The notes under the pieces: generated by a model
What the model saw: the letters and a program-made list of their open reading frames with translations, nothing else
The model's database searches: none
Told to the model about the DNA's origin: nothing
Translations under genes and position numbers: made by a program
Part shown: positions 45,792-55,453 of the stretch, piece after piece
How the letters are laid out: each line of letters opens with the position of its first letter
Numbering within the stretch: the stretch's first letter is position 1
Assembly: GCA_005223035.1 (NCBI GenBank)
Contig: NJBK01000001.1
Coordinates: 1-64,000 of the forward strand
DNA: 64,000 bases
From: Chloroflexi bacterium B3_Chlor
GTDB taxonomy: Bacteria; Chloroflexota; Anaerolineae; UBA7937; B3-Chlor
Direction of reading: 5' to 3'

Positions 45792-45904
45792 TTTCCCCAG
45801 TTCTTCCTCTCCTTGAGTTGGGGGTTCCGGTGGCGAGACTGCGTCGCTGTTGAAGGAGATGGAGGGACCACTCCTCTTTCTTACTTCTCCCTGAGGTGCT
45901 ACAA

Positions 45905-47062
45905 ATGATCTACTTCGATAATGCGGCTACTTCCTGGCCCAAGCCAGCGAGGGTTGTTGAGGCCCTGTCTCATTTCATTACGGAGGTGGGGGCCAATCCG
46001 GGACGTTCGGCTCACCGCCTGTCCATCGAGGCTGGTCGGACTATCTATGAGACCCGTGAGGCGTTGGCCCAGCTCTTCAATGTGGGTGACCCTTTGCGCA
46101 TACTGTTTGGCTTGAATGCCACGGAAGCCTTGAATCTGGCTTTGTGTGGCATACTGCGGCGTGGCGACCACGTTATTACGAGCAGCATGGAGCATAACTC
46201 CGTGATGCGCCCCTTGCGTGCCTTGGAGGCGCAGGGCGTGATCGAGCTCGACGTTGTGCGGTGTTCGTCCGAAGGCTTCTTGGACCCTACTGATTTGGAG
46301 GCGGCCATTGGGCCGCACTCCAGGATGATCGTGCTCAATCACGCCTCCAATGTGGTTGGTAGCCTATTGCCTGTGGCCGAGGCAGGGGCAATCGCCAGGA
46401 AGCACGACGTTCTCTTGCTGGTAGATGCTGCCCAGACCGCTGGAGCATACCCCTTGGACATGAAGGCTATGCAGATAGACCTGTTGGCTTTCACAGGCCA
46501 CAAGGCCCTCTTTGGGCCTCAAGGTACTGGTGGGCTCTGCCTCGGTGAGAGGGTCGTGGTGGATGATCTGCGACCTCTCAAGCGAGGGGGTACGGGCAGC
46601 AGATCCGAGCAGGAGGAGCAGCCGGATTTTCTGCCGGACAAGTATGAGAGTGGGACACCGAACACGGTGGGGCTGGCAGGTCTCAGGGCGGGGGTCGAGT
46701 TTCTGCTGGAGCAGGGAGTGGAGGCCATCCGTGCCCACGAGGTGGAGTTGACAGGACGGCTCATCGCCGGGCTTCTGGACATCCCTGGCGTGACCCTTTA
46801 CGGGGGTCACGATGCGGAGATGCAGGTGGCGAGCGTCTCGTTCAACGTCGAGGGTATTGCTCCCTCCAAGGTAGCGGCGCTACTGGATGAGCGGTACGAG
46901 ATCATGAGCCGGGTCGGGCTTCATTGTGCCCCGGCCGCACATCGGACCATCGGCACGTTCCCTGTGGGGGCGGTGCGCTTTGGTTTGAGCTATCTCAATA
47001 CGGTGGAAGAGGTAGAGGCAGCGTCGAGAGCTGCGAGGGAGATAGCAAGAAGCGAATCGTAG
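45905..47062 (+). CDS. Class V aminotransferase, cysteine desulfurase-like
   Basis: PLP enzyme of 385 residues. The start ATG 45905 follows GAGGTG, and the protein opens with the family phrase IYFDNAATSWPKPARVVEAL. The PLP Lys is in LAFTGHKALFGPQGTGGLC, and the Cys of the mobile loop is in GLHCAPAAHRTIGTFPVGA. It belongs to the cysteine desulfurase subgroup that is often found beside selenium genes rather than to IscS/SufS proper. It probably releases sulfur or selenium from (seleno)cysteine, passing it to YedF and the DUF3343 protein downstream, and finally to SelD. It is the first gene of the block and is controlled by the promoter at 45529. Confidence 0.85.
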   Translation: MIYFDNAATSWPKPARVVEALSHFITEVGANPGRSAHRLSIEAGRTIYETREALAQLFNVGDPLRILFGLNATEALNLALCGILRRGDHVITSSMEHNSVMRPLRALEAQGVIELDVVRCSSEGFLDPTDLEAAIGPHSRMIVLNHASNVVGSLLPVAEAGAIARKHDVLLLVDAAQTAGAYPLDMKAMQIDLLAFTGHKALFGPQGTGGLCLGERVVVDDLRPLKRGGTGSRSEQEEQPDFLPDKYESGTPNTVGLAGLRAGVEFLLEQGVEAIRAHEVELTGRLIAGLLDIPGVTLYGGHDAEMQVASVSFNVEGIAPSKVAALLDERYEIMSRVGLHCAPAAHRTIGTFPVGAVRFGLSYLNTVEEVEAASRAAREIARSES

Positions 47063-47112: not shown

Positions 47113-47709
47113 ATGACGAAGACCGTAGACTGCAGGGGACTTGAGTGTCCACAACCGGTCATTCTAACAAGAAAGGCTATGGCTGAAACCGAGGCGGTGA
47201 CGACTATTGTGGACAATGACACCGCCAAGATGAACGTATCGCGTATGGCCAGCAAGCAGGGGTACTCGGTTGAGGTGCAGGAGAAGGACGACGGTATCTA
47301 TCTGCATCTGAGCAAGGTGGGTGCTGTTCCGGAAGAGGAAACCGCGCCAGCTTCTGCGGCAGTCGGGCCTGGTGGCCCCACGGTGGTACTTATCCCGAGC
47401 AATGGCTTGGGACGAGGAGATGAAGAGCTAGGGCGTATCCTGATACGTTCATTCCTGCACACACTGGATGAGGTGGAACCATTGCCCGCGACCATGGTCT
47501 TCATCAACGGTGGCGTCAAGCTGACGGTCGAGGGGTCCCCGGTTGTGGAGGACTTGCAGGCTCTTGAGCAGAGAGGCGTGGACATATTGGCTTGTGGTAC
47601 TTGCCTCGGCCATTTCGGCTTGAAGGAGAAGATTGCGGTCGGGGAGATCTCCAACATGTACACCATTTCGGAGACTCTACTAGGGGCTGGCAACGTGATT
47701 GCTTTGTAG
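47113..47709 (+). CDS. yedF: YedF, selenium metabolism sulfurtransferase-like protein
   Basis: Protein of 198 residues. Residues 1-70 form a TusA/SirA-like domain with the conserved Cys in VDCRGLECPQPVILTRKAM; residues 90-198 form a DsrE-like domain with GLGRGDEELGRILIRSFL, TMVFINGGVKLTVEGSPVVE-type strand and ACGTCLGHFGLKEKIAVG, where a second redox Cys is expected. The start ATG 47113 follows GGAGGTGTGG. This two-domain YedF is a marker of bacteria that use selenium. It should carry persulfide or selenide between the desulfurase and SelD. 50 bp separates it from the upstream gene. Confidence 0.92.
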   Translation: MTKTVDCRGLECPQPVILTRKAMAETEAVTTIVDNDTAKMNVSRMASKQGYSVEVQEKDDGIYLHLSKVGAVPEEETAPASAAVGPGGPTVVLIPSNGLGRGDEELGRILIRSFLHTLDEVEPLPATMVFINGGVKLTVEGSPVVEDLQALEQRGVDILACGTCLGHFGLKEKIAVGEISNMYTISETLLGAGNVIAL

Positions 47710-51611: not shown

Positions 51612-51660
51612 AAACTCACTGAATCGAGGATCTGAAGGAAAGGCTTTCCGAGCGACAACC

Positions 51661-51855
51661 AAGGATCGAGAAGTCCTGGCCGTAGTAGAGAGGTACCCCA
51701 TTACCTAATCCGTCTTCGAGAAGTATGATGAGCAAGCTGACGAGTGCATCTGTGGCAGTGCACTCTTGTGGAGTAGACAAGAAGTGGCTGCCAAGTACTC
51801 CATTGATCTTGAAGTGTTATTGGAGGGCCTCAACAGGGCGGCTCGTAGGTCATGA
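51661..51855 (+). pseudogene. Relic of a DUF1858-like gene
   Basis: Frame at 51661 reads KDREVLAVVERYPIT, an in-frame TAA at 51706-51708, then SVFEKYDEQADECICGSALL and KYSIDLEVLLEGLNRAARRS, ending at TGA 51853-51855. It matches the DUF1858 layout ('...tV..vvekYPet..vF.ky....C..C......s...aa..hgidl..ll..LN.a'). No start codon is visible. As TAA is never selenocysteine, the gene appears dead, although a sequencing error is possible. Confidence 0.65.
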
Positions 51856-51886
51856 AGTGGCCTTCTAGTAGACTCGGAGGCAGAAG

Positions 51887-52942
51887 ATGAGTGCAGTAGA
51901 CAAATGGCGGCGTCTGACGACCTTGACCAAGGCGGCCGGTTGAGCGGCCAAGAGGGGGCCGGAGGCCCTGGCGCAGGTCGTGCGCCCTCTGCGAGAGATG
52001 TTTCGTCCGGAGGATTATCCGAACCTCCTGGTGGGGCTGGAGACGGGCGATGACGCAGCCATCTACAAGGTTAGCGATGAGCTAGCCATCATCCAGACCA
52101 TTGACTTCTTTCCGCCCATTGTGGATGATCCTTACGACTTTGGAGCCATCGCCGCTGCCAACGCCATGAGCGACGTCTACGCTATGGGGGGAGAGGTCAT
52201 CCTGGCGCTGAACGTCGCCAGTTTTCCCTCCGCGATGCCGCCTGAGATCGTCAGTGAAATACTGAGGGGTGGGGCGGAGAAGTTGGCTGAGGCGGGCGGA
52301 GTCGTCGCCGGAGGGCATACGTTGGACGACGACGAACCGAAGTACGGACTAGCGGTGATGGGTCTCGTGCATCCCCAGGAGATCGCCACCAAGGTGGGAG
52401 CGAAGCCCGGTGACGTACTCTTCCTGACCAAGCCTCTTGGCGTTGGCATTATCACCACTGCGGCAAAAGGAGGCGCGGCCGAACCTGCTCATTTGCGAGG
52501 TGCAGTGGAGCAGATGCTGATGCTAAATCGGAGAGCTGCCCAATTGATGAAGAAGGTGGAGGTCCACGCCCTCACCGATATCACAGGCTTCGCTCTCATC
52601 GGACACTCGTATGAGGTGGCGGAGCTGAACAAGGTCACCCTGCGCTTTCACTTCGACAAACTGCCTTTCTTGGATGGAGCGAAGGAGTACGCTGGCGACT
52701 GGCTGTTCCCCGGCGGCTCTTCCTGCAATAAGGATGCCTATGAAGGCAGGGTGAAGTTCGCGTCTGGGGTGGCGGAAGAGATGCAAATGCTGCTGTATAC
52801 TCCGGAAACATCGGGAGGCCTACTTATCTGTGTGGCGCCTGGTGACGCGGACCGACTGGCGCAGCTGTTCTCCCAAGAGGGGCAGCAGTACTGGATTGTC
52901 GGCGAGGTTGTGGAGGGTCCTGCCGCGATTGAGGTAGTTTGA
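51887..52942 (+). CDS. selD: Selenide, water dikinase SelD, selenocysteine-containing
   Basis: Makes selenophosphate from selenide and ATP. A frame starting at the usual stop-free position (51980) lacks the catalytic N-terminus, but from ATG 51887 (after CGGAGG) the frame is MSAVDKWRRLTTLTKAAG, TGA at 51941-51943, AAKRGPEALAQVVRPLREMF. SelD enzymes have Cys or Sec at exactly this AGxxAK site, so TGA must encode selenocysteine (residue 19 of 351). Downstream features are intact: GLETGDDAAIYKV, IIQTIDFFPPIVDDPYDFG, AAANAMSDVYAMGG, GGHTLDDDEPKYGLAV and DITGFALIGHSYEVA. A candidate bacterial SECIS hairpin follows the TGA. SelA, SelB and tRNA-Sec are not in the window. Automated gene calls would probably truncate this gene. 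Confidence 0.95.
51956..51968 (+). promoter_or_regulatory. Candidate bSECIS hairpin of selD
   Basis: GGGCC (51956-51960), GGA loop, GGCCC (51964-51968). The loop is about 17 nt past the TGA, the distance known for bacterial SECIS elements, and has the G at the start of the loop. An alternative CGGCC/GGCCG stem (51945-51961) competes. Confidence 0.5.
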
Positions 52943-52983
52943 CGCCCTTCAGGGCTGCAGCCGCGACAAAAAGGAGGGAGTCA

Positions 52984-53739
52984 ATGCGTATCGCTGTCTT
53001 GGCTGACGTCCACGGGAATCTGCCCGCCCTCGCGGCAGTGCTGTCGCATCTGGAGGCCCAGGGTGGTGCCGAGGAGATTTGGGTGTTGGGAGACTTGACG
53101 GTGTTCTGCCCATATCCGCTCCAAGTGCTAGAGCGATTGACCGCGCTGCCAAGGGTCCGTTTTCTACAGGGCAACACGGATCGTTATCTGGTCACCGGAG
53201 AACGACCTCGGAAAATCGCGGACGACGAGGCTCAGTGGGAGGGAATGGCTACGCTCTTGGAGGAGCGCGACGGCAATTTCCGTTGGACGTTCGAGCGACT
53301 GGACTACCGGTGGTATGCGTTCCTGCGGGATTTGCCGTACCTTCAAAGATCGGATGTGGCTGACTATGGTGCCATCCTTGGCGCTCACGCCTCATTTGTC
53401 AGTGATGAGTTGGGTGTCTGGGCGGCCACAACGAACGGTGAGTTGCGAGACCTGCTGGGTGGGATCGACGCCAGACTTCTGTTGTGCGGCCATACACACC
53501 ACCAGTTGGAGCGCTCGCTGGGCCAGACATCGGTGGTGAATCCCGGCAGCGTGGGTCTACCTTTAGACGGTGACCAGCGGGCGGCCTACGCCATCCTGGA
53601 CCTTGAGGGGGGCGACTGCCAAGTGGCTTTGCATCGTGTGGATTACGATGTAGACGAGGTGATCGCCAGGTTGGAAGAGGTCGGGCATCCAGCCGGTAAG
53701 TGGGTGGGCACCCGTTTACACCTTGCGGCACATCCATAG
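52984..53739 (+). CDS. Metallophosphoesterase (YfcE-like)
   Basis: A 251-residue calcineurin-type phosphoesterase. Metal-site motifs: MRIAVLADVHGNLPALAAVL (DxH), EEIWVLGDLTVF (GD), RFLQGNTDRYL (GNxD), GAHASFVSDE, LLLCGHTHHQLER (GHTHH) and VNPGSVGLP. The start ATG 52984 follows AAGGAGGG; the reported longer frame begins within the end of selD. It likely hydrolyses a phosphodiester or phosphomonoester; the substrate is unknown. It is 41 bp downstream of selD on the same strand and overlaps nothing at its 3' end except the leader of the next gene. Confidence 0.85.
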   Translation: MRIAVLADVHGNLPALAAVLSHLEAQGGAEEIWVLGDLTVFCPYPLQVLERLTALPRVRFLQGNTDRYLVTGERPRKIADDEAQWEGMATLLEERDGNFRWTFERLDYRWYAFLRDLPYLQRSDVADYGAILGAHASFVSDELGVWAATTNGELRDLLGGIDARLLLCGHTHHQLERSLGQTSVVNPGSVGLPLDGDQRAAYAILDLEGGDCQVALHRVDYDVDEVIARLEEVGHPAGKWVGTRLHLAAHP

Positions 53740-53758
53740 CGAGGGAGGAGATGAGGTC

Positions 53759-54445
53759 GTGGTAATCGGCGTCGTGGCGGCGCTCAAGGAGGAGATAGAG
53801 CCGCTAGTTGAGGCCATGGATGACGTGCGGGCCTCGAAGTGGGGAAAGCTATCCCTATACGAGGGGGTGATAGGCAGCTGCCGGGTCGTGGCTGTGGGTG
53901 GCGGCGTGGGGAAGGTGAGGGCGGCAGCGTGCACGCAGCATCTGATAGATGAGTTCGCGCCGCAGGCCATCATCTGTTGTGGAGTCGCTGGTGCTGTCAA
54001 TCCCGAACTCAAGATAGGCGACATCGTCATCTCAAAGAGGGCCCTGCAACACGATTTCGAACTGGGGGATCCCGATCTAGCGAAGAAGCTCAGGAGGCGT
54101 TGGCTCAAGACGGATCCCAGGTTGGTGGGCCTTGCCGCGGAGGCGGGAAAGGATTTGGGATTGGAGGACCGGATACATGTGGGGACGGTGCTCACGGGAG
54201 ATCAGGCCATCACAAGTCATGAGAAACGGCAGCGGCTGTGGGACACCTTCGGCGGAGACTGCGTGGACATGGAAAGTGCCGCAGTAGGGCAAGTGTGTCT
54301 GCTGAATGACATACCTTTTGTGATCGTACGCGCGATGTCGGACTTTGCAGCGGAAAACTCGGTCGCTGAGTTCAAACGGAGTTTCGCCCAAACCGCCGCA
54401 GACGCTGCCAGGGTAGTTCTGGCTACACTGGAAAGAGTACGCTGA
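53759..54445 (+). CDS. mtnN: 5'-methylthioadenosine/S-adenosylhomocysteine nucleosidase
   Basis: Phosphorylase-superfamily enzyme that removes adenine from MTA and SAH. GTG 53759 is favoured: GGGAGGAG lies 8-9 bp upstream and the protein then begins VVIGVVAALKEEIEPLVEAM, matching the family. Signatures: VGGGVGKVRAAACTQHLIDE, ICCGVAGAVNPELKIGDIVI, TGDQAITSHEKRQRLWDTFG, DCVDMESAAVGQVCLLNDIP (catalytic Glu) and VRAMSDFAAENSVAEF (catalytic Asp). In a methyltransferase-rich organism this clears SAH. The start overlaps the end of the phosphoesterase region by several bases short of the stop, so these are likely cotranscribed. Confidence 0.9.
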   Translation: MVIGVVAALKEEIEPLVEAMDDVRASKWGKLSLYEGVIGSCRVVAVGGGVGKVRAAACTQHLIDEFAPQAIICCGVAGAVNPELKIGDIVISKRALQHDFELGDPDLAKKLRRRWLKTDPRLVGLAAEAGKDLGLEDRIHVGTVLTGDQAITSHEKRQRLWDTFGGDCVDMESAAVGQVCLLNDIPFVIVRAMSDFAAENSVAEFKRSFAQTAADAARVVLATLERVR

Positions 54446-54549: not shown

Positions 54550-54792
54550 ATGGCGCGCAAGATCTTCAAGACGGGGAATAGCATGGTTGTCTCTCTACCC
54601 AGGGAAACCCTGGAGTTCCTAAGACTGAAGGAAGGGGCCGAAGTGTCCGTTGAATTGGACAAGGAGCGTGGTGAGATCATCATCGCGCCAGTTAGCAGGG
54701 CTCTTCCAGGGATAGATCAGGAGTTCGCCCGTCAGGTTGCTGAGTTCGTTGAGCAGTATCGCCCAGCACTAGAGGCCCTTGCCAAGGAATGA
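54550..54792 (+). CDS. AbrB/MazE-type antitoxin
   Basis: An 80-residue protein. Residues 1-45 form the swapped-hairpin AbrB DNA-binding domain (ARKIFKTGNSMVVSLPRETL, LKEGAEVSVELDKERGEIII); residues 50-80 are a helical tail that would bind and neutralise the toxin. The ribosome-binding site is AAGGAGG. It overlaps the toxin start by 4 bp. It is 105 bp downstream of mtnN, with its own promoter and operator. Confidence 0.9.
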   Translation: MARKIFKTGNSMVVSLPRETLEFLRLKEGAEVSVELDKERGEIIIAPVSRALPGIDQEFARQVAEFVEQYRPALEALAKE

Positions 54793-55178
54793 ACTATCTC
54801 AACGTTGAGCAAGTTCTCTTCCTCCATGCCCGGGTAGTAGAGGAGACTGGGGGAAGTCATGGAGTACGTGACATCGGTCTGTTGGAATCGGCCGTCGCCC
54901 GTCCACAAGCTACTTTCGAAGGTCAAGAGCTGTATCTGGATATCTTTTCCAAAGCTGCCGCGCTTATGGATTCCCTCATCCGCAATCATCCTTTTGTTGA
55001 CGGAAACAAGCGAACTGGCGTGACGGGAGCTGCCATATTCCTCAGACGTAACGGCTGGTTGCCTAATGCAAGCAACCGCGAGCTAGAAGACTTCACTTGG
55101 CAGGTGGCCAGTGCTGAGCTCAGCATATCCCAACCGGCACGATGGTTGAAAAAGCATTGTACCCCTGAGCTCAGCTAG
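54789..55178 (+). CDS. doc: Doc/Fic-family death-on-curing toxin
   Basis: A 129-residue Doc-type toxin with the Fic active-site motif HPFVDGNKRTG and the family start MNYLNVEQVLFLHARVVEET, followed by GVRDIGLLESAVARPQ. Doc phosphorylates elongation factor Tu and so blocks translation; AMPylation is the reaction of other Fic proteins. The catalytic His, Asp, Asn and Arg residues of the motif are all present, so the toxin should be active. Translationally coupled to the antitoxin (4-bp overlap). Confidence 0.92.
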   Translation: MNYLNVEQVLFLHARVVEETGGSHGVRDIGLLESAVARPQATFEGQELYLDIFSKAAALMDSLIRNHPFVDGNKRTGVTGAAIFLRRNGWLPNASNRELEDFTWQVASAELSISQPARWLKKHCTPELS

Positions 55179-55249
55179 TGTTTGGTGCTTCTGGGGTGCA
55201 AGGGCTGCCTTGGGAACTCCTCGATATCGGTCACCTAAGTGCGAGATAT

Positions 55250-55453
55250 CCGTCATGGGGGGCTTATCTTGGAGAGGGGGCGGTCGTAGGGCAGGTCTGC
55301 CATCTGAACGGCACACGATTCCTCATCGTGCGCGCCGCCTCCGATTCCGTAGCGGAGAACTCGCTCAAGGAGTTCAAACAGAGCTTTGCCGAGAACGCTG
55401 CTCATGCTGCGAAGGTGGTGCACGGGGTGTTGGAGAGAGCTAGACGATCGTGA
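55250..55453 (+). pseudogene. Relic of an mtnN 3' end
   Basis: An open frame (from GTG 55178, 91 codons) whose last 60 residues, from GAVVGQVCHLNGTRFLIVRA through SVAENSLKEFKQSFAENAAH, match the C-terminus of the intact mtnN gene (VGQVCLLNDIPFVIVRAMSD). The catalytic Glu region and everything N-terminal is missing and the first 25 codons show no homology. It follows the toxin gene directly, as would happen if the toxin-antitoxin pair had been inserted with a partial duplication of mtnN. Its 3' end overlaps the stop codon of the convergent biotin carrier gene by 14 bp. Confidence 0.75.

Follow-up and report, generated by a model that had tools for sequence, protein, structure and literature searches.

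A selD gene with an in-frame TGA in a Chloroflexota bacterium and a candidate tandem-hairpin recoding element downstream of the codon

How might a gene for selenophosphate synthetase be translated through a TGA that occupies the codon of its catalytic residue, and which structure in the mRNA would direct that reading? The question is raised by the selD locus of Chloroflexi bacterium B3_Chlor, which lies in the window analysed here (the whole stretch of 64,000 nucleotides at the start of contig NJBK01000001.1). Selenocysteine (Sec)-containing SelD is a known and widespread kind of protein, of which this gene is one more example, and the point added here is the tandem recoding element. We are highly confident that this selD encodes a selenoprotein SelD whose UGA is decoded as Sec through a downstream recoding element, with the second of two hairpins (H2) proposed as the one read by SelB.

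The selD gene and its in-frame TGA

The features under discussion are collected in Table 1. As a preliminary description of this DNA had proposed, the selD frame opens at an ATG (51887) and remains open to 52942 through a single in-frame TGA. The ATG is preceded by a GGAGG ribosome-binding site at 51876-51880, and a stop TGA follows at 52943-52945. That description had also placed the TGA at the catalytic site where SelD proteins carry Cys or Sec, and the protein comparisons agree: the TIGR00476 match begins at residue 9, spans the TGA and reaches 373.1 bits (curated cut-off 125), as a full-length SelD does, and alignments with SelD structures in the PDB likewise cross the TGA with Cys opposite to it. 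The catalytic motif G-[C/U]-x-x-K is present as AAG-U-AAK, aligned with the Cys of the solved SelDs, and the gene thus has the hallmark of a selenoprotein, namely a TGA where homologues have Cys, followed by conserved protein. The truncation expected from standard gene calling was also seen, the ORF caller starting at the GTG at 51980 and losing the catalytic residue.

Table 1. Coordinates of the selD locus, its hairpins and nearby selenium-related genes
Feature	Position	Strand	Evidence or remark
Cysteine desulfurase-like / selenocysteine lyase-like gene	45896..47062	+	TIGR01977 464.9 bits; SclA model 397 bits, below cut-off 525
yedF, sulfurtransferase-like selenium metabolism protein	47113..47709	+	TIGR03527 217.9 bits (cut-off 110); start taken as the ATG before MTKTVDCRGLECPQP
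selD, selenide water dikinase (selenophosphate synthetase), one putative Sec at residue 19	51887..52945	+	TIGR00476 373 bits
In-frame TGA, predicted to be read as Sec (residue 19), catalytic position	51941..51943	+	Cys there in solved SelDs; TGA in nearly all class relatives
Hairpin H1, GGGCC-GGA-GGCCC, loop 17 nt after TGA	51956..51968	+	Candidate bSECIS of the preliminary description; synonymous-codon fold test, Cys-selD control
Hairpin H2, GGCGCA-GGUCG-UGCGCC, loop 32 nt after TGA; proposed SelB-reading hairpin	51970..51986	+	Near-invariant loop G-U, fold excess, fdhA-like loop start
Shorter ORF, GTG start, without catalytic residue; not the proposed gene	51980..52945	+	Standard ORF calling (reported as 51980-52942)

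Conservation of the codon is extensive. A protein match was found in 55 of 60 genomes of the class, with one TGA in nearly all full-length SelD matches and at an identical codon position wherever the N-terminus is readable. At the scale of the phylum most of the 195 matching genomes have TGA at the SelD site, Cys versions being a minority. The nearest named relative is a Chloroflexota MAG, and other named TGA carriers include Photobacterium, Desulfovirgula and Geosporobacter. One candidate TGA-less version (G037) has ambiguous letters at the codon and was rejected and left out. Several genomes hold more than one gene of this kind: a tandem selD pair with TGA in both copies (L028, G009:C278, 1534 and 2767), the contig ending within the second copy, two Sec-selD genes on separate contigs of G038, and three Cys-type SelDs (L097, L193 and L194; motif GLGCACK) in open frames of approximately 740-770 residues, probably fusion proteins, whose genomes also contain Sec-SelD.

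Just upstream of selD a plus-strand frame (51660-51858) reads TTKDREVLAVVERYPIT and then, past a TAA that breaks it, SVFEKYDEQADECICGSALLWSRQEVAAKYSIDLEVLLEGLNRAARRS; an unbroken counterpart precedes the selD of a relative (L107, G003) and is weakly DUF1858-like (E 0.012, below the cut-off). Beyond selD lie a Fic/Doc-family gene (54789-55178, +) and an ORF (55178-55453, +) with a final part similar to the C-terminal end of the MTA/SAH nucleosidase at 53723-54445, as if duplicated around the Fic/Doc gene.

Two hairpins downstream of the TGA

Published rules for the bacterial SECIS (bSECIS) call for a loop of 3-9 nt on a stem of 4-16 bp, a G in the first two loop positions (often GG or GU), a spacing of 16-37 nt from the UGA and an MFE of -7.5 or lower (PMC13188914). 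The H1 hairpin, put forward in the preliminary description as the candidate bSECIS, is real and passes every one of these rules (loop GGA, spacing 17, -10.3 kcal/mol); it is, however, one of two, and H2, which had been missed, passes them all as well (loop GGUCG, spacing 32, -10.8 kcal/mol) with the better SelB-type loop. Across 52 genes the rules were passed by H2 in 45, versus 12 for H1. In 113 of 120 genes the H2 loop carries G at position 37, counted from the T of the TGA, and in 117 of 120 it carries U at position 38. In the present gene this loop starts with GGUC, a start also seen in the hairpins of two formate dehydrogenase (fdhA) genes in the same genome (L103 and L052, G000:C39 and C49). 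Both of these have a TGA at the Sec site, followed by one main hairpin whose GGUC loop is 18 nt from the UGA.

Compared with dinucleotide shuffles, H1 does not stand out by plain folding (z 0.14), and RNAalifold returned no consensus for the element, probably because H1 pairs in slightly different registers across species. Our fold test instead kept the protein and redrew synonymous codons from the same gene, with nt 13-29 (H1) and nt 28-48 (H2) from the T of the TGA as test stretches, and was run on 31 and then 183 genes, one spurious extraction (L200) being left out of the final set. Over the 183 Sec-selD genes the mean fold excess was -3.3 kcal/mol for H1 and -5.1 kcal/mol for H2 in windows that were picked after viewing the sequences, although a scan along the gene still marks only that region and the mean excess at other sampled positions along selD is close to zero. 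Genes fell on the stable side of their recodings in 96% of cases for H1 and 90% for H2, and in a subset of 52 genes each hairpin gave a Wilcoxon p < 1e-9. In contrast, the effect was absent from 18 Cys-selD genes (H1 +0.5, H2 -0.4; Mann-Whitney p 1e-10 and 4e-8 versus Sec-selD). Pairing in H1 is also visible in codon choice, its Gly codon being GGT in 17 of 26 genes with a GA.. partner codon versus 2 of 37 with GC.. (Fisher 3e-7). Seven pairs have changed on both sides (pair counts in the better register), a number reached in 0 of 500 shuffles that retain shared ancestry. Judged from these sequences, both hairpins are under selection in Sec genes only.

Searched with the Rfam SECIS covariance models up to E 10, the stretch 51800-52200 gave no match. 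A covariance model built on the selD element itself (R1) finds the selD site again in almost every relative with Sec-selD, and elsewhere gives weak hits only (E 2e-4 and above), so the element is not a general signal common to other selenoproteins.

Which of the two hairpins would be read by SelB? That H1 alone is the bSECIS, with H2 incidental or accessory, is unlikely in our estimation, even though the GGA loop of H1 satisfies the published rule at 17 nt from the UGA and some lineages possess H1 alone, with GG loops. Against it, H2 is under the stronger selection and its GU loop is nearly invariant; moreover in L021 and L022, the closest relatives, the H1 loops are of CTGA type and lack GG but the H2 loop GGTCG is kept, which favours H2 as the SelB-read hairpin. 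The loop signature also varies with the presence of H2: among the 24 genes without it the H1 loop has GG in 23 and GU in 1, whereas in genes with H2 only 21 of 145 have GG on the H1 loop (Fisher 3e-15). The genes have a common ancestry, however: to explain the loss of H2 the tree requires a minimum of 11 changes, and an independent-pairs sign test for exchange of the loop motif lacks power (median p 0.125). From these patterns we infer that H2 ordinarily carries the SelB-reading loop, which in several lineages has shifted to H1. For the present gene the signal loop most likely sits on H2 rather than H1, with SelB binding to either hairpin being a prediction from sequence.

Selenocysteine machinery and the reading of the TGA

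The draft genome (2.8 Mb, 73 contigs, 85% complete) contains the full set of SelA, SelB and tRNA-Sec that the preliminary description had expected of this cell. The tRNA-Sec scores 74.2 bits with Rfam RF01852 (cut-off 47) and is called tRNA-SeC by ARAGORN with anticodon UCA (tca), SelB is a 638-residue frame matching with 350 bits in all when its in-frame neighbours are counted, and SelA reaches 569 bits. No second selD, Sec or non-Sec, was found in this 85% complete assembly, the next matches being distant relatives of at most 30% identity. The complete Sec machinery, the single selD and the TGA conserved in dozens of relatives together support the earlier claim that selenophosphate synthesis in this organism itself depends on Sec. 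A tRNA selenouridine synthase was looked for in the genome and not found, which leaves Sec as the only use of selenophosphate seen there. At 4-6 kb upstream of selD are yedF and the cysteine desulfurase-like gene, the latter likely serving in selenium supply.

These observations bear on two further readings of the codon. Were the TGA a genuine stop codon, or the product of a sequencing error, the gene would begin at GTG 51980 or be a pseudogene, in agreement with standard ORF calling; we consider this extremely improbable, as nearly all full-length SelDs of the class have the TGA at this codon, flanked on either side by conserved protein, the genome's Sec machinery is complete, and the hairpins are confined to TGA versions. 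Genome-wide reassignment of TGA to another amino acid, for which no support was found, has a negligible probability given the tRNA-Sec with its UCA anticodon, the TGA at 52943 that serves as the stop of selD, and the position of the remaining in-frame TGAs found, which occupy the Sec site of FdhA.

Proposed mechanism and comparison with known systems

In the Sec-decoding model that we favour, the UGA at 51941-51943 would be decoded by SelB, GTP and Sec-tRNA-Sec owing to a recoding element formed by the mRNA immediately after the codon. This element consists of two short hairpins in tandem: H1 stands between the UGA and H2, and H2 with its GGU-type loop is the hairpin proposed for SelB reading. 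With H1 folded out, the path from the UGA to the H2 loop would shrink to approximately 19 nt, similar to the 18 nt seen in the fdhA signals, and H1 may act as a spacer. Sec19 would lie in a flexible N-terminal loop and participate in the formation of selenophosphate from selenide and ATP; as SelD is needed for the Sec that SelD would itself contain, the pathway would be self-sustaining. For the broader reading, that such a two-hairpin element is carried by Sec-selD mRNAs across Chloroflexota, some Bacillota, Photobacterium and other bacteria, with the upstream hairpin setting the distance for the downstream SelB-reading hairpin or replacing it in some lineages, and with the GG/GU loop swapped repeatedly between them, we see the chances as evenly balanced.

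Sec in SelD is expected biology, yet a gene caller will cut selD short and drop its catalytic residue. Confirmation of the two-hairpin layout could help to explain why bSECIS loops are reported at anything from 16 to 37 nt from the UGA, and would offer a simple natural series, some genes with both hairpins and others with H1 alone and a GG loop on it, in which to test how SelB locates its codon.

At the protein level the closest parallels are other bacterial Sec-SelDs, such as that of Haemophilus influenzae and that of Aquifex aeolicus, natively with Sec and solved as a Cys variant (PDB 2yye and 2zod). Family and site are the same and the flanking residues almost so (SSG-C-AAK in 2yye versus AAG-U-AAK here), and the protein differs by ordinary divergence alone. 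Among prokaryotic selenoprotein families, Sec-containing SelD ranks second in frequency (PMC13188914). Prediction of bSECIS elements in Sec-containing SelD genes with RNAz has precedent in Mariotti et al. 2015 (PMC4561486), where passages of the main text describe a simple stem-loop as opposed to the tandem seen here, although its supplementary figure may overlap with our layout. No description of the tandem layout was found in the literature searched, the SelD bSECIS figure in that supplement lying outside the search. As in the known bacterial SECIS (the PMC13188914 consensus, E. coli fdhF and SECIS_3, RF01989), a hairpin with a small G[G/U] loop follows shortly after the UGA, at 16-37 nt. 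One of the genome's own fdhA signals resembles SECIS_3 (49.3 bits, below gathering, E 8e-11), whereas the selD element matches no Rfam SECIS family. Where the bacterial SECIS is one hairpin, the selD element has two selected hairpins in tandem, and the G[G/U] loop usually belongs to the second of them, at 32-33 nt from the UGA.
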